Source: Chloroflexota bacterium (GTDB lineage Bacteria; Chloroflexota; Anaerolineae; Anaerolineales; Villigracilaceae). Taken from it: 64,000 nt of DNA. Each line of letters starts with the position of its first letter. Position 1 is the first letter of the stretch. The stretch covers positions 310,001 to 374,000 of the forward strand of contig JACRBN010000026.1 in the NCBI GenBank assembly GCA_016213105.1, given 5' to 3'. Under the pieces are notes generated by a model. The model was given only the letters and a program-made list of their open reading frames with translations. It searched no databases and was not told the DNA's origin. The translations under genes were made by a program, and so were the position numbers. This document shows positions 50,567 through 64,000 of this stretch, in pieces.

Positions 50567-53500
50567 TTATCCCATCAGCTTCTTGTAGAGGTCACGCGTC
50601 TCCGGCGAGGGGGAAAAGCCCAGGTCGGCCAGGGACGCCTGGCAGGCCTGGTATTGGCGTCGGACGGAGTTTTGATCCCCCTGGGCGGCGTAGGCGCGCA
50701 TCAGGATGCAGTGAAGGGCCTCCAGGTACGGGTCGATCTTCAGGGCGCGCTGGGCGGTCTCGACGGCCTGTTGGAACTGGCCGTTCTCCAGGTACAGGCC
50801 CGCCAGGGTTTCCAGCGCAGATAGTCCGGCCTGCTCCAGGCGGTCGCGCTCGCCGATGGCCCAGGGCTGATCCACTTCCGAGAGATATGGACCGCGCGCC
50901 AGGTCGACGGCCTTTTGCAGTTGTTCGATGCGCTCTTCTCTGGTTTTCAACATTCGCGAACGCGCCAAGTAGGTCTCGAAGGCTTCCACATCGTACTCGT
51001 AATCCAGGGAGAAATTGAAGCGGTAATATTCCTCGTCGAAGAGGATCGCATCGCGGCGGGTGGCGCGCCGCAGGCGGAAGATGTAAGCCTTGAAGCGCTG
51101 CTTCAGGGTTTGCGGTTCATCCACCTCGGGCCACAGGGAGGCGGCGATCTGCTCCTTTGTGACCGGGCCGCTTTTGAAGAGCAGGTAGAAGAACAGGTCG
51201 CGGACCGAGACCGTGCTCCAGTCGGAGACAGTGACCGGGCGCCCATCCACCTGCACTTCGGCGCGCCCAAACGCGCGGATCGCCAGGCTGGGCGTCGGCA
51301 TGTGGATGGATTGGGCCAGTCTCCGCAGGGAACGGCGCACGCCCGGCCAACCGGCCTCGATACGGGCGGCCTTCTCCAACAGCCCGTGCAGGCTGCGACC
51401 CACCTGCGCATCCTTCAGCATGGGCTTCAGCCAGGGACGGGTCTGCAGCAGCCCCACCAGCATGGTATGCGTGGGACGGGTGCTTTTATTCAACAGTTCG
51501 CGAATTTCTGCGCGCGCCGCTTCGATTTGTCCATCCGACCCCAGCGCGGCTGCCAGCCAGATACTGGACAGGGCGACGTTCGGCGCGCGTCCATTTTGCA
51601 GGTATAACTCCTTGCTGGCCTGGAAGGACAATACGGCCTGCGCCGCCTGCCCCATCAGCAAATGCAGGCGGCCCTCGGCCAGGGAATACAAGCCCTGGTC
51701 GGGCAGGTTGGAGATCACATATTTTTTCGCCTGCACTTCCTGAAAGAGCACACTGGCTTGCCCGGCATCGCCCTGCAGCAAGGCCAGGGTGATGCGGGCC
51801 AGACTCAGGTAAATATCGATAAAGGTATCCCGCCATTGTCCCGCCGCCGGCCTGGCCCGCTCATAAGCCTGCTCTGCAGATGCAAATTCGCCCACCTCGG
51901 CGTACAGGTCGCCCAGGCCGATCAGGAGCACCGTTTCCGTGCGCGTGTTGCGGGCCCTGCCCGCCAGGGAGAGGCCCTGCTCGTACGTATCGGCGGCCAG
52001 CTCGTACTCCCCGCTCTGGTGATACAGGAACCCCAACTCATTCAGTGTACTCGCCTGAACGCCCAGGTTCTTTTCAGCCTGCCAGATGTCCAATGCTCGT
52101 TGATGAAAATTTCTGGCCGTCTCGATATCCCCCAGGAGGCCATTTACCCCACCAAGCTCCGACAACAGGGAGGTTATGCTGCCGCTCTCGTTCAAGGCGG
52201 TGTAGAGCGCCAGGGAGCGCTCGATATGCGCGGCGGCTTCGCGCAGGTTTCCGAGGCGGAGCAGGTTGCCGCCTTTTTGCCGCAGGGCCTCGGCGAAGAT
52301 GGGCTGCAAATGAGGATGCGGCTCGGTCAATTGCAGTGCTTCCTCTGCATCCGCCAGGGCGGCGGCATGATTACTTGCCAGGCGGTTCATGGAGGCGCGC
52401 CGCACGAGGGCCAGGGTCAACCCGTCGAGATCATCCGCCTGGCGATAGGTTCGGACGGCTTCTTCGATGAGTTCCGTCGCAACGGACAGGTCTCTTTTTT
52501 TGAGGGCGATGGCCCCGCGCAGGGAGACCAGCCCGGGGCGCGAACGCAGCAAGCTGGGCGGCAGGCTATTCACCCAATTCTCCAGGGTGGTCAGCGCGTG
52601 CTGGAGCATGGGCGTCCCGCCGCGCTCCACCACACCGGCCAGCTTTTCTGGGTTGTCGAGCTGGCGGCAGGCATCATAGGCTTTTTCCCACTCACCGCTC
52701 TTTTCGTAGAACTGAGTCAGCCGCTCGAAGGTGGGACTGATTTCAGATGGGTATTCTTCGCGCAGGCGCGCCTGGAGGAATTCGCGGAAGAGGGGATGAT
52801 AGCGCAGCCAGCGCCCGTCGCCGACCGGCAGGACGAACAGGTTCTTGTCCAGCACCTCGCCCATGAGGGACGGCCAGCTTTCATGAGAAGCTGGGCCGAG
52901 GATCGCTTCGCACAGTTCGGCGTTGAACTCTTCGGGCAGGCAGGTGCGCAGCAGGAAATCGCGGGTGGCGGGCTGCTGCTGGTCCAGTACCTGGCGGCCG
53001 AGGTAGGAAAAGGTATCCACGCGCGAGACGTTCGTCCCGCCGGAGAGGTCCGAGAGCAGCAGGCCGGTCACCCATCCGCCGGTTTGTTCGGACAATCGTC
53101 GCGCGTCGGGTTCGCTGATGTCCCTGCGCTGGTTCTGGTGATAGAGGGCCTGGATCTCGACCGGCTGGAAGGCCAGGTCGGTTTGCCCCAGGCCGTTGAT
53201 CTGTTCGCGCGCCACCATGAGGGTGATGTCGGGCAGGCTGGGCAGGGTGCGCGAGGACAGGATGACGTGACAGTTTTCGTCCACCAATTGCAGGAAGCGA
53301 TTGACCAGCGCGGCAATCACGGGCAGGTTGTCGAGCAGGTGGTAATCGTCGAGGATGATCAGGAAATCCTCTTCGACCTGTTCGTAGAGTTCGTTGGTGA
53401 GCGAGACGAGCAGCGCCTCGGCGTCGTCTTCGATGGATTTTAGGTTGTTCAGTTGGGGGATCAACGGGGCGCTCAGGCCCTTGAAGCGTTCGGTCAGCGC

Positions 53501-53755
53501 GGCGATCAGGTAGGCCAGGAAGCGCTGCGGGTCGCGGTCGAGCGGGTCGAGCGAAAGCCAGCAAACGGGCAGGTCGGAGCGATGGGCCAGGTCGACCAGC
53601 AGGGAGGTCTTGCCATAACCGGCCGGGGCCGAGAGCAGAACCAGCTTCCTGTCCAGAAAGGCATTCAGGCCTTCCAGCAAACGGTCGCGGGAAAGCAGTC
53701 CGGGGCGGCGGTGCGGGACGATGATTTTGGTCTTGCTGATCGGGACTGGCGACAT
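50567..53755 (-). CDS. MalT-like STAND ATPase with SARP/BTAD output domain
   Basis: The 1062-aa protein starts with a P-loop (SAPAGYGKTSLL, 42-53) and Walker B FLIILDDYHL (131-140) of MalT-type STAND ATPases, continues with TPR-like repeats (400-800) and ends with an OmpR-like winged helix (815-910, FGRAEVQVDGRPVTVSDW) plus a BTAD helical domain (920-1062). Such proteins sense a ligand and activate transcription. Its target is unknown. The gene is monocistronic between a promoter region near 53756-53811 and the terminator at 50503. Confidence 0.88.
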   Translation of the reverse strand: MSPVPISKTKIIVPHRRPGLLSRDRLLEGLNAFLDRKLVLLSAPAGYGKTSLLVDLAHRSDLPVCWLSLDPLDRDPQRFLAYLIAALTERFKGLSAPLIPQLNNLKSIEDDAEALLVSLTNELYEQVEEDFLIILDDYHLLDNLPVIAALVNRFLQLVDENCHVILSSRTLPSLPDITLMVAREQINGLGQTDLAFQPVEIQALYHQNQRRDISEPDARRLSEQTGGWVTGLLLSDLSGGTNVSRVDTFSYLGRQVLDQQQPATRDFLLRTCLPEEFNAELCEAILGPASHESWPSLMGEVLDKNLFVLPVGDGRWLRYHPLFREFLQARLREEYPSEISPTFERLTQFYEKSGEWEKAYDACRQLDNPEKLAGVVERGGTPMLQHALTTLENWVNSLPPSLLRSRPGLVSLRGAIALKKRDLSVATELIEEAVRTYRQADDLDGLTLALVRRASMNRLASNHAAALADAEEALQLTEPHPHLQPIFAEALRQKGGNLLRLGNLREAAAHIERSLALYTALNESGSITSLLSELGGVNGLLGDIETARNFHQRALDIWQAEKNLGVQASTLNELGFLYHQSGEYELAADTYEQGLSLAGRARNTRTETVLLIGLGDLYAEVGEFASAEQAYERARPAAGQWRDTFIDIYLSLARITLALLQGDAGQASVLFQEVQAKKYVISNLPDQGLYSLAEGRLHLLMGQAAQAVLSFQASKELYLQNGRAPNVALSSIWLAAALGSDGQIEAARAEIRELLNKSTRPTHTMLVGLLQTRPWLKPMLKDAQVGRSLHGLLEKAARIEAGWPGVRRSLRRLAQSIHMPTPSLAIRAFGRAEVQVDGRPVTVSDWSTVSVRDLFFYLLFKSGPVTKEQIAASLWPEVDEPQTLKQRFKAYIFRLRRATRRDAILFDEEYYRFNFSLDYEYDVEAFETYLARSRMLKTREERIEQLQKAVDLARGPYLSEVDQPWAIGERDRLEQAGLSALETLAGLYLENGQFQQAVETAQRALKIDPYLEALHCILMRAYAAQGDQNSVRRQYQACQASLADLGFSPSPETRDLYKKLMG

Positions 53756-57642: not shown

Positions 57643-58284
57643 ATGGCGTACCAGCTCTTTGATGCAAACGGACGGGAGGTGACAAATGCCGACCTGCAGA
57701 ACCGGGCGGCCTGGTATCGGCATGGCGTCCGCAGGGAGGATGTCTTCGTTGGAAAATACGGCCAATCCCTGGGGGTGCGGATCAATCCCGCCAAGAAAAA
57801 CGACCCGACCGTCCCCGACCTTATCCATCAAAATCACCTGGCTGACTTGAAGTGCCAGAACACGCCGTTCTTCCATGCCTGCAAGCTGGGCATCGATCCC
57901 ACCTACGCGGTCACATTCAATTTAAAGGATGCCTACAATTATGGTCATTGGGGCAGGCACCATGCGGGCATGGTCATCTTCTACTGGGTGGACTGGGCGG
58001 CGGTGCGGATGGTCTCGAATGGGAAGACTTACTCCGCCCAGCCGTTGAGTGGGGTCTGGAAGGTGGATTTTTCAACGTTGGACCAGCTGCGAATGTCCAG
58101 TCCGATTCACTGGTACAACCAGCGGAGCAGGCAGCCCGAATCCCATACTGAGATGAAGAAGAGGCTGGCCGCCTTCGAGCCTAGGCTGGTGGATGGGCCG
58201 AACGTTTGGCCGATCCGTGAGGTGGGGGTCAACGCAGCCTGCAGTTACGTCTTCGACCTGCGCAAGTTCGAACGGTTGGAATAA
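57643..58284 (+). CDS. Unknown 213-aa protein
   Basis: A soluble, Trp/His/Tyr-rich protein (YNYGHWGRHHAGMVIFYWVD; WPIREVGVNAACSYVFDL). TCAGGAGG before ATG supports the start. No family is recognised; the dense aromatic and His residues could form a metal or ligand site. Confidence 0.75.
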   Translation: MAYQLFDANGREVTNADLQNRAAWYRHGVRREDVFVGKYGQSLGVRINPAKKNDPTVPDLIHQNHLADLKCQNTPFFHACKLGIDPTYAVTFNLKDAYNYGHWGRHHAGMVIFYWVDWAAVRMVSNGKTYSAQPLSGVWKVDFSTLDQLRMSSPIHWYNQRSRQPESHTEMKKRLAAFEPRLVDGPNVWPIREVGVNAACSYVFDLRKFERLE

Positions 58285-59062: not shown

Positions 59063-59180
59063 GTGTAGCCTCCTGTGAGTATGAAATGTATTGTGAATGC
59101 AATCTCAACAGCGTGTCGGCTTTTTCGCTACATTTGCCTTGCTTTTTTAGATATAGTCAATCCGAAACAGGACATTTGCC

Positions 59181-59222
59181 CATGTCATTTTCTTGACATG
59201 GCACACAAAACAAGTATATACT
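59181..59222 (+). promoter_or_regulatory. Promoter and overlapping operator of the KAP operon
   Basis: TTGACA (59193-59198), 18-base spacer, TATACT (59217-59222). The inverted repeat CATGTCA-TTTTCT-TGACATG (59181-59200) covers the -35 box, so a repressor could control the operon. Confidence 0.7.
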
Positions 59223-59260
59223 TCTTTGTGAGCTTGGGCAACCAGTTTGTGGAGGTAAAC

Positions 59261-60518
59261 ATGTCCAGAGATATTCATGCTCCAATCGAACATAAAGAAG
59301 ATGATCTTCTCGGTCGTCATTTGTTGGCCGAAAGGATTTATAGTCGCTTGTGCCGGGATGATTGTCCACAAGCAATTGGGGTTTATGGGGGGTGGGGGAC
59401 AGGAAAAACAAGCCTTTTAAGACTTCTTCAGGAAATTCACAAGAAAATCAACCAATCCGCCCTGCATATCGAATATATCGATGCTTGGCAATACGAGAAT
59501 TCCGGGGATTTGTTTGTGCCAATCATTGTTAAGCTGATGGCAAAAAGGACGGACGCCAACCCGGATTTGGCGACATATTTGAATCGAGTGTCATTCGCTG
59601 TTCTTTACATGGGAACAGATCTTCTGTTGAGGCATCTGACAGGGCTCGACTTGAGCGATGTGAAAGGCTATAAAGAGGATATTGAAGCCAATGAAAGTAA
59701 TCATATAACTCCCTTGATGTGGGAAAATATCACGGACAAGGTGGAGGAGACATCCCAGGCCATGGAGAAATTGACCGAGAAGGTCAACCAGGGTTTGAAA
59801 ACAAAAAAAAAGTGTTTTCCTCATCGACAACCTTGACCGTTGTTCTCCAGAGAATACAGTCCGCCTCCTGGAATCTATCAAGAATTTCTTGAGCGTGCCT
59901 GGCTGTGTATGGGTTTTTGCCATGGACTCGGGCGTGGTGGCGAGTTACATCAACCGCAAATACGAGGGGACCACCATGGATGGGAACAGCTACCTGGATA
60001 AGATCATCCCTGAACAATATCACCTTTCATTCTTTCCCGAGGAAAACGATTCGCGCATCTATGATCTGGTGCGCTCAGCGGCCGGTAGAGAACTTACGCT
60101 GAATGATTGGAAACGCCTGCCGCTCATCCCGTCTATCATGGTCCCCCGCCGTCTGAAGAAAAGCACGGTAAAGTTCGCCGAGTATTTCGACGGCCAACGA
60201 ACGGAAGGGGATCGCGATACCGTTTTTCTGCTGTGCCTGCTGTACCACTCCTGGCCCGATTTTTATGAACGGCTATCTTCATCATCACCCCAACACATCG
60301 GCAGGATCCTGGCGAATTTCTTCCAAAAGAAGAACTTCCAGGATGAAAGTGTACGCTGGGGAGAATATGCGCCGCTTCCATTGGACAAGAAGTTTGCTGA
60401 AAACCAGGATTTGATCTATTTTCTGCAAACCGCGTTTCCCAACAACTCCCCTGAAGCTGAAGTCGTCGGGGAGATTCACCAAGCCATGGCAGGCCTGCGT
60501 CAGATAGGATTGCCATGA
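59261..60518 (+). pseudogene. KAP-type P-loop NTPase, frameshifted at an A9 run
   Basis: From ATG 59261 (after GTGGAGG) the first frame encodes LLGRHLLAERIYSRLCRD and Walker A GVYGGWGTGKTSLLRLL (near residue 40), as in KAP NTPases. At the A9 run 59804-59812 the frame breaks: it stops at 59836, whereas a one-base shift continues with SVFLIDNLDRCSPENTVRLL (Walker B and LDRC), then WVFAMDSGVVASYI, to 60518. The joined protein would be about 419 aa. Homopolymer error, decay or programmed slippage are all possible. Its last bases overlap the next start (ATGA). Confidence 0.85.
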
Positions 60519-62314
60519 TGGATACAGAGCCCTTTTATAAGCGGCCCGCGGTATGGAGAAGGGTTATTGTTTGGGGGCTGTTTGGATGGTTCTTATTCCT
60601 GTTCAGAACTGACATATTTTTGTTTTTATCCATGCTGCGGGGTGCTTTGACAAGCTGGTCCATTCCTCTTATTGAAGATCAAATGCTTTTGTCGACGGCC
60701 AGATTTGCGGCAAACATATTGGTATACACCACGGTCTTTTTCTCTTCGCTATTCATCGTTGCCCAATTCGTTCTGCCGGTGCATGGATGGACCAATCGCC
60801 TTAAAGCTTTCGAGCGGCTTTTGCTTTTCCTGACGCCCTGGCGCGGGCCGGCCGTGTTTGTTCGCGAAGGAAGATTGATCAAGCGAATTGGCGAAGAAGA
60901 TAACGGCAACCCAGGCGTTGCTTTGGTGGATTTACGCAGTGCAATCATCCTGGAGCAGGAATATCCCTGGGGGGAAATCATCCAGGATCAGGATCAAACC
61001 GAGCATAATGGTGCAAAAGAAAAAAGGCGCATACCCTTCTTTGCAAAATCATCGCAGGACCAGGCATTCCCCTATGTCCGGGTGGGAGGGCCGGGCGTTC
61101 ATTTCACGGAATATGGAGAAAAAATTCGCGATGTGGTGGATTTGCGCCGTCAGGTTCGGACAGAATCAGAGGTAAAGGCTTTTACGCGGGATGGCATCGA
61201 ACTTCAGACCAACGTATTTGCCGTTTTCAGCCTGAGCGATCCCCCGGATGTCATTCCCGTGGCGTATGTGGGTGGGCGGAGCTTGGAACACCTGTTTGCG
61301 TTGGAAATGGTCACTGTCGACAAGAATTTCATCAAAATCAAGGCAAAGCATGAACTGGACCCGGAAGACGCCGAGGAAATTCACAAGGCTGTGGAAGCTG
61401 GCTTGATCACGCCAACCACCGCGGGCACTTCCCCGCAAACCCCGTTGCGGGGAAAATCCCCCTATGTTTTCGACGAACAAAGGGTTTTTGCAGCGGTGTA
61501 TGGGCAGGCGCAGCGCTCCCTGCCTGAAAAGAATTTGAAATGGGATGAACTTCCCCAGTTGATTGCTGCTGAATTATTTCGCGACCTGCTGGAACAGTAC
61601 CCTTACGATTATCTTTACAAACTTGACGACCCCAAGACATTGCCATGGTTGAACGAAATCAAGCCAAAACTTTCCAGAAAATTAATGTACCAAGGGTTGC
61701 TTTCCTACAAGATGGTTCGCCCTGCGCAGTCTCGGTTTGCTGCCGGCAGTGCAAGGGTCCCCAATTGGAACGAAGACCCGCTGAACGAAAATCTTTTTGC
61801 GCACCCTTTTCACGCGCAAGACTTGGAAATGTCATTGCCCCGCGACTTGACGACGCCCAAACCACTGCGCGACAGGGGAATCAAATCCGTTGCGGCAGGC
61901 TTCACCGACTTGAAGGTTTCCGAAGATATCAAGATGAAAATGGTGGAACGCTGGAAAGCCCGTTGGGAGCGGGAAATCGCTTTCGCCCGCGCGAAACAGG
62001 AACGCGAAGCCATGCAGGTCATCAATACCGCCCGCACCCAGACTCAAAGGGACAGCACGTATTTTCTATCCAATATGCTCAAACAGGAGAAACATTCCAA
62101 GGAGGCGCTGGCCTTGTTGCTGTTCCAGGCTTTGGAAACCGCCGCAACCGACGAAAAAGGATACAAGGATTTCCCTCCCAAGGAAGTTCTGAACATGCTG
62201 CAAAGTCTGCATCGCTGGCTGCTAACCGAGCACCAGGACTTTGAGCACAAGAAAAAGGCCCATAAGCTTGAGGGACATTCTGTACCCCCGGCAAACAAGG
62301 AACCAAAGGCCTAG
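60515..62314 (+). CDS. Membrane SPFH/band-7-like protein 1
   Basis: The 599-aa protein has two hydrophobic helices (17-42 and 66-89), then a region with VVDLRRQVRTESEVKAFTRD and GIELQTNVFAVFSLSD (near 210-250), the strand pattern of SPFH (stomatin-like) domains. The C-terminal 120 residues are a charged coiled coil. SPFH proteins build membrane microdomain scaffolds or cages. The start overlaps the KAP stop. The N-terminal layout is shared with the next gene. Confidence 0.72.
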   Translation: MMDTEPFYKRPAVWRRVIVWGLFGWFLFLFRTDIFLFLSMLRGALTSWSIPLIEDQMLLSTARFAANILVYTTVFFSSLFIVAQFVLPVHGWTNRLKAFERLLLFLTPWRGPAVFVREGRLIKRIGEEDNGNPGVALVDLRSAIILEQEYPWGEIIQDQDQTEHNGAKEKRRIPFFAKSSQDQAFPYVRVGGPGVHFTEYGEKIRDVVDLRRQVRTESEVKAFTRDGIELQTNVFAVFSLSDPPDVIPVAYVGGRSLEHLFALEMVTVDKNFIKIKAKHELDPEDAEEIHKAVEAGLITPTTAGTSPQTPLRGKSPYVFDEQRVFAAVYGQAQRSLPEKNLKWDELPQLIAAELFRDLLEQYPYDYLYKLDDPKTLPWLNEIKPKLSRKLMYQGLLSYKMVRPAQSRFAAGSARVPNWNEDPLNENLFAHPFHAQDLEMSLPRDLTTPKPLRDRGIKSVAAGFTDLKVSEDIKMKMVERWKARWEREIAFARAKQEREAMQVINTARTQTQRDSTYFLSNMLKQEKHSKEALALLLFQALETAATDEKGYKDFPPKEVLNMLQSLHRWLLTEHQDFEHKKKAHKLEGHSVPPANKEPKA

Positions 62315-62317
62315 GTG

Positions 62318-63649
62318 ATGAATAAAACCGCGAACACCCCAAATTCCAAACCAGGGGTATTGTCCTATTTCTTCGATCATGTTTTTTTCGATGAAACGAT
62401 AGCCATTCGGTTGATACGGTTTATGTTTATGCTCCTGGTCATTCTTGGCTGGGCCTTCCTTGCAACATTGTGGTTCGAGCAGGCAAGCAACTGGCAGGAA
62501 ATTCTACGCGCAATGTCGCGACACCTGCTGGCCCCTTTTTCTGCAATGCTGGCCGCCTTCTTGATCGGCGCGCGGTACTTGCAGGATATTTATGAACTAC
62601 CCGGTTACCTTGCAGCAGTTCATTATCTATATGCAAGTTTGTTCGATGGGCCGCCCTACCTGCCTCCATTCAGTGGCCTCTTTCTGCCCAATATGAACAT
62701 TTCGGATGGAAAAGTCGACTCGGAAAGCACCGCAACCAGTTTGTTGGATCAAGTTGGCGGGCCTGGATGGATATCCGTTGGCAATGGGAACGCGGTATTG
62801 CTCGAATCCCTGGAGGAGACGGGAGTGGTGGTTGGGGCGGGAACACATTACGTGCCTCGCAACCAGAGAGTTCAGGAAATTGTGAGCCTGGAGGATCAGG
62901 TCTGGGTGTCCAAGCCAGTTGTTGCGACCACCAAGGATGGTATCGAGATCGCTGTCCGTGATTTTCAATTTGGATATCGAATTTGCGCCGATCATCGCGC
63001 CGGCAGCCTGATCCATCGCACAGCAGCCGAACCTTATCCGTTTTCGGCCCAGGCGGTGCGTGACATGGCCTATAATCGCAGCGTTCGCGTAGATGGAAAG
63101 CCATTACCCTGGAGTATAGCTGTCCAATTCCGTCTGGATGGAATTCTGACCGATTTCATCAACTCCAACGTGGTGGATGAGGTGATTGCCCCTGTTTCCG
63201 CGGACCCGCGAAAGATCATGCATCAACAATTATCCGACGAGAAACTTCGCGGCGGCATAAAGAATTTTTTGGGAACCGAGGTCATTTGGTTTAATGTGGG
63301 CCAATTTACCGTGCAAGATGAAAAAATCGACGGAGATATTAAACGGTACCGCAAGGATGTCTGGTTTGCCCATTGGGCTGGCAATACGGCAATGCTTTTG
63401 GCGCAGGGAAAGGCTGAGATAATATCGGAAGAAGAAGGCGGGCGTTCCCAAACCACGGTCAGTATGCTCGGAGGGATTGTTCAAGCACTGAAGGATGCCG
63501 GACTCGATAACGAGAAAATTGATGAAAACCTTTGGAACATCGTTTTGGCTCGGACCGCGCAGGTAATCGAGTCAATGACCTCCCTGTACGGTAAATGGGA
63601 TACAACTGAGCGCGATCAAGGAATGGGCAAGGATAAGCATGAGTCATAA
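62318..63649 (+). CDS. Membrane SPFH/band-7-like protein 2
   Basis: A second protein of 443 aa with two hydrophobic helices (33-54 and 70-90) and VPRNQRVQEIVSLEDQVWVS followed by KDGIEIAVRDFQFGYRI (near 180-215), again SPFH-like. It ends with a helical segment without a long coiled coil. ATG 62318 is preferred over GTG 62315; the spacing to the previous stop is three bases. It may form a hetero-oligomer with protein 1. Confidence 0.7.
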   Translation: MNKTANTPNSKPGVLSYFFDHVFFDETIAIRLIRFMFMLLVILGWAFLATLWFEQASNWQEILRAMSRHLLAPFSAMLAAFLIGARYLQDIYELPGYLAAVHYLYASLFDGPPYLPPFSGLFLPNMNISDGKVDSESTATSLLDQVGGPGWISVGNGNAVLLESLEETGVVVGAGTHYVPRNQRVQEIVSLEDQVWVSKPVVATTKDGIEIAVRDFQFGYRICADHRAGSLIHRTAAEPYPFSAQAVRDMAYNRSVRVDGKPLPWSIAVQFRLDGILTDFINSNVVDEVIAPVSADPRKIMHQQLSDEKLRGGIKNFLGTEVIWFNVGQFTVQDEKIDGDIKRYRKDVWFAHWAGNTAMLLAQGKAEIISEEEGGRSQTTVSMLGGIVQALKDAGLDNEKIDENLWNIVLARTAQVIESMTSLYGKWDTTERDQGMGKDKHES

Positions 63650-64000
63650 TAAGAAGAATGTAGACAGTTGGTTTGAGTATGCCCGTTCTGTGTGGCTGAC
63701 AAAAACAGGCAGTAGGCTGCAGTTTCGCTCCTCTGTTGAACAACTTATCAATAAGTTGCAAAAGTTGTCCGCGGACCACAAGAGGTTCGGGGAGGCATGG
63801 CATTATGTGGAAGAAATCGAGCAGTTACAAAGCCGCATCCGCCGTGATGATCGATTGTATCCCCGGGAGTTTCCAAATATGCTTTTGGAATGTGGGGTTG
63901 CAGCCTATAAAATGGGAAACTCGCGCGAAGCTGTGCGATTATTGTCGGGTTCAATAGGGTATTGTACAGATGATCATGACAAGGCGGTGGCCCGCTGGAT
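63639..64000 (+). CDS. TPR-like protein, 5' part only
   Basis: ATG 63639 follows AAGGATAAGC and overlaps the previous stop by 11 bases. The frame is open to the window end (120 codons). The helical pattern with FPNMLLECGVAAYKMGNSRE followed by AVRLLSGSIGY fits tetratricopeptide-type repeats. It is the fourth gene of the KAP-SPFH operon and is cut by the window. Confidence 0.65.
   Translation, partial: MSHNKKNVDSWFEYARSVWLTKTGSRLQFRSSVEQLINKLQKLSADHKRFGEAWHYVEEIEQLQSRIRRDDRLYPREFPNMLLECGVAAYKMGNSREAVRLLSGSIGYCTDDHDKAVARW

Follow-up and report, generated by a model that had tools for sequence, protein, structure and literature searches.

The 64,000-nucleotide stretch of Chloroflexota DNA analysed here (the window; contig JACRBN010000026.1, indexed as G000:C25:310001-374000, with G000 denoting the source genome in all comparisons) carries at its end a genuine operon of KAP, SPFH and TPR-S24 genes, and this operon belongs to a genetic module spread across the class. 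From position 59261, five genes follow one another on the forward strand: a split KAP NTPase gene, the genes for two different membrane SPFH proteins (SPFH1 and SPFH2), a gene for a TPR-like protein that ends in a LexA-type S24 peptidase domain (TPR-S24, or gene 4), and a PHP phosphoesterase gene. Within the taxonomic order of the source genome, the core that travels together is SPFH1-SPFH2-TPR(-S24), and KAP is an optional extra observed in a single family; other orders of the class have one or two SPFH genes followed by the TPR-S24 gene. The genomic part of this explanation is well supported. As to function, an SPFH cage on the membrane could hold a self-cleaving TPR-LexA-type switch that is gated by KAP in some lineages, a mechanism that is put forward tentatively and rated somewhat short of an even chance.

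To assess conservation of gene order, 400 genomes sampled from the order were searched with the N-terminal half of gene 4; 45 genomes gave a match at E <1e-3, and the gene adjoined SPFH2 in 31 of these. Twelve weak matches with weak or no TPR-profile scores (G351, G291, G277, G296, G399, G148, G067, G270, G247, G227, G344 and G166) were dropped as presumed ordinary TPR proteins; three genes with equally weak scores (in G257, G135 and G183) were yet true TPR partners. In a table of 40 TPR partners (TPR E <1e-10), compiled from several searches, 36 genes lay directly after SPFH2 on the same strand (31 of these rows coming from the 400-genome sample), the partners without SPFH2 being those of L091, L116 and L121 and the second copy in L113. 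The 36 SPFH2-TPR loci included 22 with an S24 domain, 11 with KAP upstream (plus L175, discussed below) and 10 with PHP downstream. For the class as a whole, 12 of 396 sampled genomes passed E 1e-25 with a 22-row TPR-S24 profile, at most five candidates being scored per genome, and SPFH was found upstream of TPR-S24 on the same strand in eight of nine further class loci (with one open reading frame (ORF) in between in L194); in the ninth, L200, it was on the opposite strand, about 0.6 kb off. In the phylum sample 5 of 400 genomes passed, all from the same order. Because the thresholds were strict, these counts are lower bounds. The gene order thus recurs in other genomes beyond chance, and the original prediction, which had treated the KAP, SPFH and TPR-like genes as one four-gene unit, was borne out for the SPFH2-TPR pair and for the close KAP relatives described below, but not for KAP as a constant member.

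The protein encoded by gene 4 had been described as TPR-like, a view that is supported by weak TPR matches but overlooked the C-terminal half, a Peptidase_S24 domain of the LexA/UmuD type (Pfam E 1.5e-13); an assignment as TPR-like only was therefore rejected. The key residues of the domain are Ala216-Gly217, Ser271 and Lys314. When 33 TPR-S24 proteins were aligned to a profile built from 22 of them, the Ser was found in all 33, the Lys in 32 and the Ala-Gly self-cleavage site in 31, with the motifs visible in the plain sequences too; Ala216, Gly217 and Ser271 were invariant in the 22-row alignment (A7). Against the PDB, the A7 profile matched LexA (3k2z, E 4e-17), UmuD' (1umu, 3.5e-10) and, weakly, cI (2ho0, 0.003), and HMMER paired EIRAG of LexA with EIPAG of the TPR-S24 proteins, a stretch that is insignificant by itself. 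The N-terminal half is helical-repeat-like and occupies the place of the helix-turn-helix (HTH) domain of LexA: LexA_DNA_bind gave no Pfam match in gene 4 at E 1, and the lexA model TIGR00498 reached 48.9 bits (cut-off 110.95) through the C-terminal part of the model alone. The protein is therefore like LexA, UmuD and lambda cI in having an S24 domain with the Ser, the Lys and the Ala-Gly site; unlike LexA, with its DNA-binding HTH, it has a TPR-like N-terminal part and is encoded in an operon with membrane scaffolds. Conservation of the cleavage site together with the catalytic dyad is good evidence that self-cleavage matters. A 498-amino-acid S24 protein in which Ser and Lys are kept was also observed directly after another SPFH pair (L045:6145-7641, in G005).

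The predicted folds place both membrane proteins in the SPFH superfamily, in agreement with the original prediction. In Pfam, Band_7 fell short of its curated cut-off of 23.6 bits for both SPFH1 (21.8) and SPFH2 (16.8), and a sequence-profile search of the PDB gave three matches for SPFH1, all GlmU-type at E ~0.6, and none for SPFH2; the folds were therefore modelled, from alignments of 26 and 30 rows, and compared with solved structures by Foldseek and VIA-align. The SPFH2 model (pLDDT 83.5) matched HflK/C (7vhq) with a Foldseek E-value of 3.4e-10, and its first 48 matches included HflK/C, erlin, prohibitin, stomatin, flotillin, QmcA and vault. For the SPFH1 model (pLDDT 76.1) the top Foldseek match was HflK/C 7vhq_G (E 7.9e-8), and VIA-align superposed it on the stomatin SPFH domain 4fvg over 109 of 109 residues (root-mean-square deviation (rmsd) 1.9, Z 11.1) and on erlin over 248 residues (rmsd 22.7, Z 12.2). 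Whole-chain TM-scores among the SPFH matches were low (0.13-0.35 by query length), probably as a result of differing bends of the long helices. Hydropathy gave two hydrophobic regions per protein and long N-terminal helices were present in both models, and a membrane anchor and a long C-terminal helix are predicted for each. Matches to SPFH1 were found in 46 of 61 relatives, many of them belonging to another, more distantly related pair of SPFH proteins encoded in a different gene neighbourhood. In three loci (L040:4135-8682, L041:1104-5693 and L099:4243-8799) about 1000 N-terminal residues are fused to SPFH1, the extension containing, in L040 and L041, LVIVD beta-propeller repeats by Pfam.

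The linkage of KAP was determined by using the intact KAP of G117 as query against 152 genomes of the family (outside the family, KAP was checked in the fetched loci alone). Matches at E 1e-8 or better were obtained in 45 genomes, and 12 copies in 11 genomes were classed as close KAPs (E 5e-67 or better, the remaining KAPs being at 5e-22 or weaker), those of G000 and G008 entering the set by their C-terminal halves. In all 12 cases the next gene downstream, on the same strand, was SPFH1. Nine were whole (416-457 amino acids), one (L173) starts at a contig end and those of G000 and G008 were broken. The TPR-S24 gene followed in 11 of the 12 loci; the remaining locus, L175, breaks off within SPFH2 at the contig end, and the same genome has SPFH2-TPR-S24 at the end of another contig (L089). 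Two loci with weaker KAPs that were fetched (L177 and L178) belonged to a different gene set. The Walker B motif DNLDRCSP was invariant among ten aligned KAPs, and no hydrophobic stretch above 1.6 was found in the two KAPs tested, the C-terminal half from G000 reaching 1.58. On the SPFH1 tree (39 rows) the KAP label required 3 changes, against a shuffled mean of 10.5 (0 of 500 shuffles as low); the corresponding figures were 2 changes for TPR-only (0 of 500) and 6 for S24-only (55 of 500). Nine inner branches of the tree are unresolved, so that one gain with losses is not distinguished from several gains. A KAP NTPase domain was also observed in a 1208-amino-acid protein (L121:142-3768, in G176), together with a TPR-partner-like domain, Peptidase_M23 and HEAT repeats.

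The KAP NTPase of the source operon had been counted as one gene. Its family assignment was confirmed, KAP_NTPase (PF07693) scoring above cut-off at 59324-59650 and 59799-60020, but these halves lie in different frames, and KAP is not one intact reading frame in the source genome; the frame change is preceded by an intact Walker A and followed by an intact Walker B (Table 1). In G008, of the same family, the two halves of KAP were found at the ends of two contigs and each end sequence matched 13 times in the genome, from which we infer that the gene is interrupted at Walker B by a repeated element, although the two contigs were left unjoined in the assembly. In G283 (L102) KAP is absent and SPFH1-SPFH2-TPR-S24 retained, in a locus whose SPFH1 is nested among those of KAP operons in the tree (support 100/99). 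KAP thus appears to have undergone loss or breakage on at least two occasions, or on three should the split in G000 be real, with the other three genes whole. The frame change in G000 could instead be an assembly error or be bypassed by slippage at the A run, KAP being whole in the living cell, an explanation with an appreciable, though minority, chance of being right: the gene has a single lesion, no motif is missing on either side of it, and long A runs are known slippage sites. However, among 11 runs of at least 8 in 464 kb of the same contig the KAP run alone passed the split-gene threshold (also passed by 3 of 77 runs of at least 7 and by 43 of 2000 random positions), so that a general frame error at long runs in this contig was not supported. 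Nor was a homopolymer present at this position in the intact KAP relatives whose DNA was searched, which argues against a conserved recoding site, and the cases of G283 and G008 also count against a whole gene. With its KAP gene split, the module in G000 probably runs without the full-length protein, barring a bypass or an error of assembly.

In the mechanism proposed for the module, the SPFH proteins would form an oligomeric cage on the inner membrane, by analogy with HflK/HflC and prohibitins, and the TPR-like domain would dock the TPR-S24 protein on it, the S24 domain being uncut in the resting state. Membrane or cytosolic stress would be sensed by the cage, with KAP as a relay in some lineages, and the signal would place the Ala-Gly site within the active site formed by Ser and Lys; the TPR-S24 protein would then cut itself between its TPR and S24 parts, and this cut would switch the complex by releasing or inactivating the TPR adaptor. 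KAP, where present, would be an ATP-driven gate. LexA-type proteins undergo self-cutting once RecA, serving as a scaffold, has stabilised their cleavable form, and the SPFH cage would act on TPR-S24 as the RecA filament does on LexA. Such a role is suggested for the cage because SPFH cages hold proteases or other partners, LexA uses a scaffold and IrvR dispenses with RecA. The ATPase docked on an SPFH ring or cage, as envisaged in the original prediction, is likewise possible, since the genes travel together and both SPFH folds were found. IrvR, with LexA-like self-cleavage in the absence of RecA, offers a precedent (PMC7101444).

Several observations weigh against a self-cleaving switch of this kind, or against its generality. 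In L115 an Arg replaces the Lys of the S24 dyad, in L116 the cleavage site reads Ala-Ser and SPFH is not adjoining, and the S24 protein of L045 has no Ala-Gly site and is perhaps a non-cleaving version. The TPR assignment of gene 4 is weak (Pfam TPR_2 E 0.009-0.06), with stronger matches in some relatives. The TPR partner had no S24 domain in 14 of the 36 SPFH2-TPR loci (families f1, f8, f13 and f14), so self-cleavage would be unneeded in some versions. No KAP was present on the same contig in 25 of the 36, five of these 25 (L089, L103, L104, L106 and L113) being truncated within or ahead of SPFH1, and the genome of L089 having KAP on another contig; with KAP absent, split or interrupted in many operons, KAP gating would not be general. 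One SPFH gene was visible in four of the nine further class loci (L194, L195, L197 and L198), and the pair is therefore not universal. Finally, an exact LexA box, GAAC-N4-GTTC, was found in the ~400 bases upstream of none of 27 operon starts (L092 being scanned over fewer bases because of a contig end), which gives no indication that SOS control is general.

The last result bears directly on a DNA-damage branch, in which RecA filaments would trigger cleavage of TPR-S24 and an SOS signal would be passed to the membrane. The LexA/UmuD type of the domain, with its full dyad and cleavage site, is compatible with such a branch, as are the LexA gene of the source genome, which has GAAC-N4-GTTC in its own promoter, and a mild excess of one-mismatch boxes, these being present at 6 of 27 operon starts (22%) as against 205 of 2000 background windows (10%); the six include two similar starts in G179 and G199. 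Given the lack of exact boxes and a best match with two mismatches in the source operon, however, this branch appears improbable and is the least likely of the explanations considered, and a LexA regulon comprising these operons in general was rejected. In L110 and L112, from one genus, a one-mismatch box lies 67-69 bases upstream of SPFH1, and lineage-specific SOS control is possible there, to judge from the box.

The fold comparisons raise the further possibility of membrane protein quality control in the manner of HflK-HflC-FtsH, the SPFH proteins forming the cage, KAP performing ATP-driven work and S24 cutting other proteins in trans. As in HflK-HflC and the prohibitin, stomatin and erlin group, which gave the best PDB fold matches, two adjacent, unlike SPFH proteins are involved; the genes stand in tandem as hflK-hflC do, and HflK/C was the top Foldseek match of both models. 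HflKC encloses FtsH hexamers (PMC12005517), and in other SPFH operons a ClpP-type protease is carried in NfeD1b (PMC2636767), so that there, as here, an SPFH gene and a gene for a serine-protease-domain protein share an operon. The differences are that the NfeD1b protease is of the NfeD/ClpP kind and the present one of the LexA/UmuD S24 type with a TPR-like domain, that HflK and HflC have one membrane helix each against two predicted per SPFH protein here, and that the module has no FtsH gene in its operon, having TPR-S24 and sometimes KAP instead. Quality control is considered unlikely: KAP went unseen in the 25 operons mentioned above and is, to our knowledge, no threading AAA+ unfoldase, and an Ala-Gly site as widely kept as this one suits cutting in cis better than a general protease.

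Anti-phage defence, with KAP sensing infection and an SPFH/TPR-S24 complex acting at the membrane, was also weighed, as the KAPs share the KAP P-loop domain of PifA, QatA and Tmn. They matched the PADLOC models PifA, QatA and candidate PDC-S20, defence activity is on record for the KAP NTPase Tmn (PMC11846954), the PHP protein weakly matched Ppl (PADLOC E 0.0017, NCBIfam E 0.0012), and patchy presence and loss of the genes would fit. From these known proteins the KAPs described here differ in their length when whole, in having no hydrophobic stretch above 1.6 in the two tested, and in their position before SPFH genes. In PADLOC at E 1, moreover, SPFH1, SPFH2 and TPR-S24 remained unmatched, so that the likeness to Qat, Pif and Tmn ends at KAP (QatA 68.4 bits, cut-off 600), apart from the weak Ppl match of PHP; SPFH1 had no relatives in plasmid and phage collections at 1e-5; and none of 10 flanking genes, mostly metabolic, matched PADLOC at 1e-5, so that the defence-island location raised by the original prediction was not supported. 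A defence role is accordingly distinctly unlikely. The literature surveyed, covering KAP with SPFH, S24 with SPFH or TPR, and SPFH with LexA or autocleavage, yielded no description of an SPFH-S24 or SPFH-KAP system, as judged mainly by titles and abstract openings and with subscription journals mostly outside the coverage.

The features of the operon are listed in Table 1. As originally proposed, all genes are on one strand behind one promoter-like site, with an inverted repeat over its -35 element that is a possible operator on the basis of its sequence.

Table 1. Operon features in window coordinates
Feature	Position	Strand	Description
Inverted repeat CCATGTC-N8-GACATGG	59180..59201	+	Arms 59180-59186 and 59195-59201; 7 bp; covers -35
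Sigma-70-like promoter TTGACA-N18-TATACT	59193..59222	+	11/12 positions match
KAP, N-terminal part	59261..59836	+	ATG at 59261; Walker A GGWGTGKT; stop at 59836 after frame change
KAP, C-terminal part	59799..60518	+	Other frame; Walker B VFLIDNLDR; 52% identical to intact G117 KAP
Run of 9 A	59803..59811	+	KAP frame change, directly before Walker B strand
SPFH1	60515..62314	+	599 amino acids; two predicted N-terminal membrane helices, SPFH domain, long helix
SPFH2	62318..63649	+	443 amino acids; two predicted N-terminal membrane helices, SPFH domain, long helix; alternative start GTG 62315
TPR-S24 gene, first part	63639..64000	+	Whole protein 364 amino acids; gene runs on to contig position equal to window 64733

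Six other promoter-like sites, each with 9/12 matches, occur in the 7 kb region, giving 7 in total against 6.6 in shuffles; neither promoter-like nor terminator-like sites were in clear excess over shuffles. The inverted repeat is overlapped by a palindrome, GACAT-N6-ATGTC (59171-59186), that has four sites in the genome including this one, against ~5 expected by simple arithmetic and 0 for a reversed-pattern control; a regulon of this palindrome was rejected, none being visible. Overlaps, supposed to exist at every junction, were found between KAP and SPFH1 (4 nucleotides) and between SPFH2 and gene 4 (11 nucleotides), but not between SPFH1 and SPFH2. The fifth gene (L005:10730-11410) overlaps the TPR-S24 gene by 4 nucleotides and encodes a 226-amino-acid PHP protein that is CehA/McbA-like, below cut-off. 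The strongest terminator-like stem of the region, with 13 pairs, follows a small gene downstream of PHP, which we take from its sequence to be cold-shock-like. Metabolic genes in the flanks include those for arginase, an imidazolonepropionase-like protein, inositol phosphatase, electron transfer flavoprotein, an MFS protein and a multihaem cytochrome; the non-metabolic neighbours include a response regulator and a 1062-amino-acid protein with BTAD and MalT-like TPR regions at 50567-53755, probably a large regulator. A 213-amino-acid ORF at 57643-58284 had no match in Pfam or PADLOC.

LexA-type self-cleavage is known chiefly from DNA-damage and prophage control. The module may be a membrane-bound stress switch, and a bolder interpretation, plausible enough to state but doubtful, is that a LexA-type switch has been moved from DNA to the membrane, with an SPFH cage replacing the RecA filament and an optional KAP NTPase serving as a nucleotide-driven gate. 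If true, it would introduce a new form of proteolytic signalling based at the membrane of bacteria. A class-wide family with full active and cleavage sites, a TPR-like part instead of a DNA-binding one and SPFH partners would represent a new use of the switch, and bacterial SPFH cages, the functions of which are largely open, would gain a directly testable protease partner.

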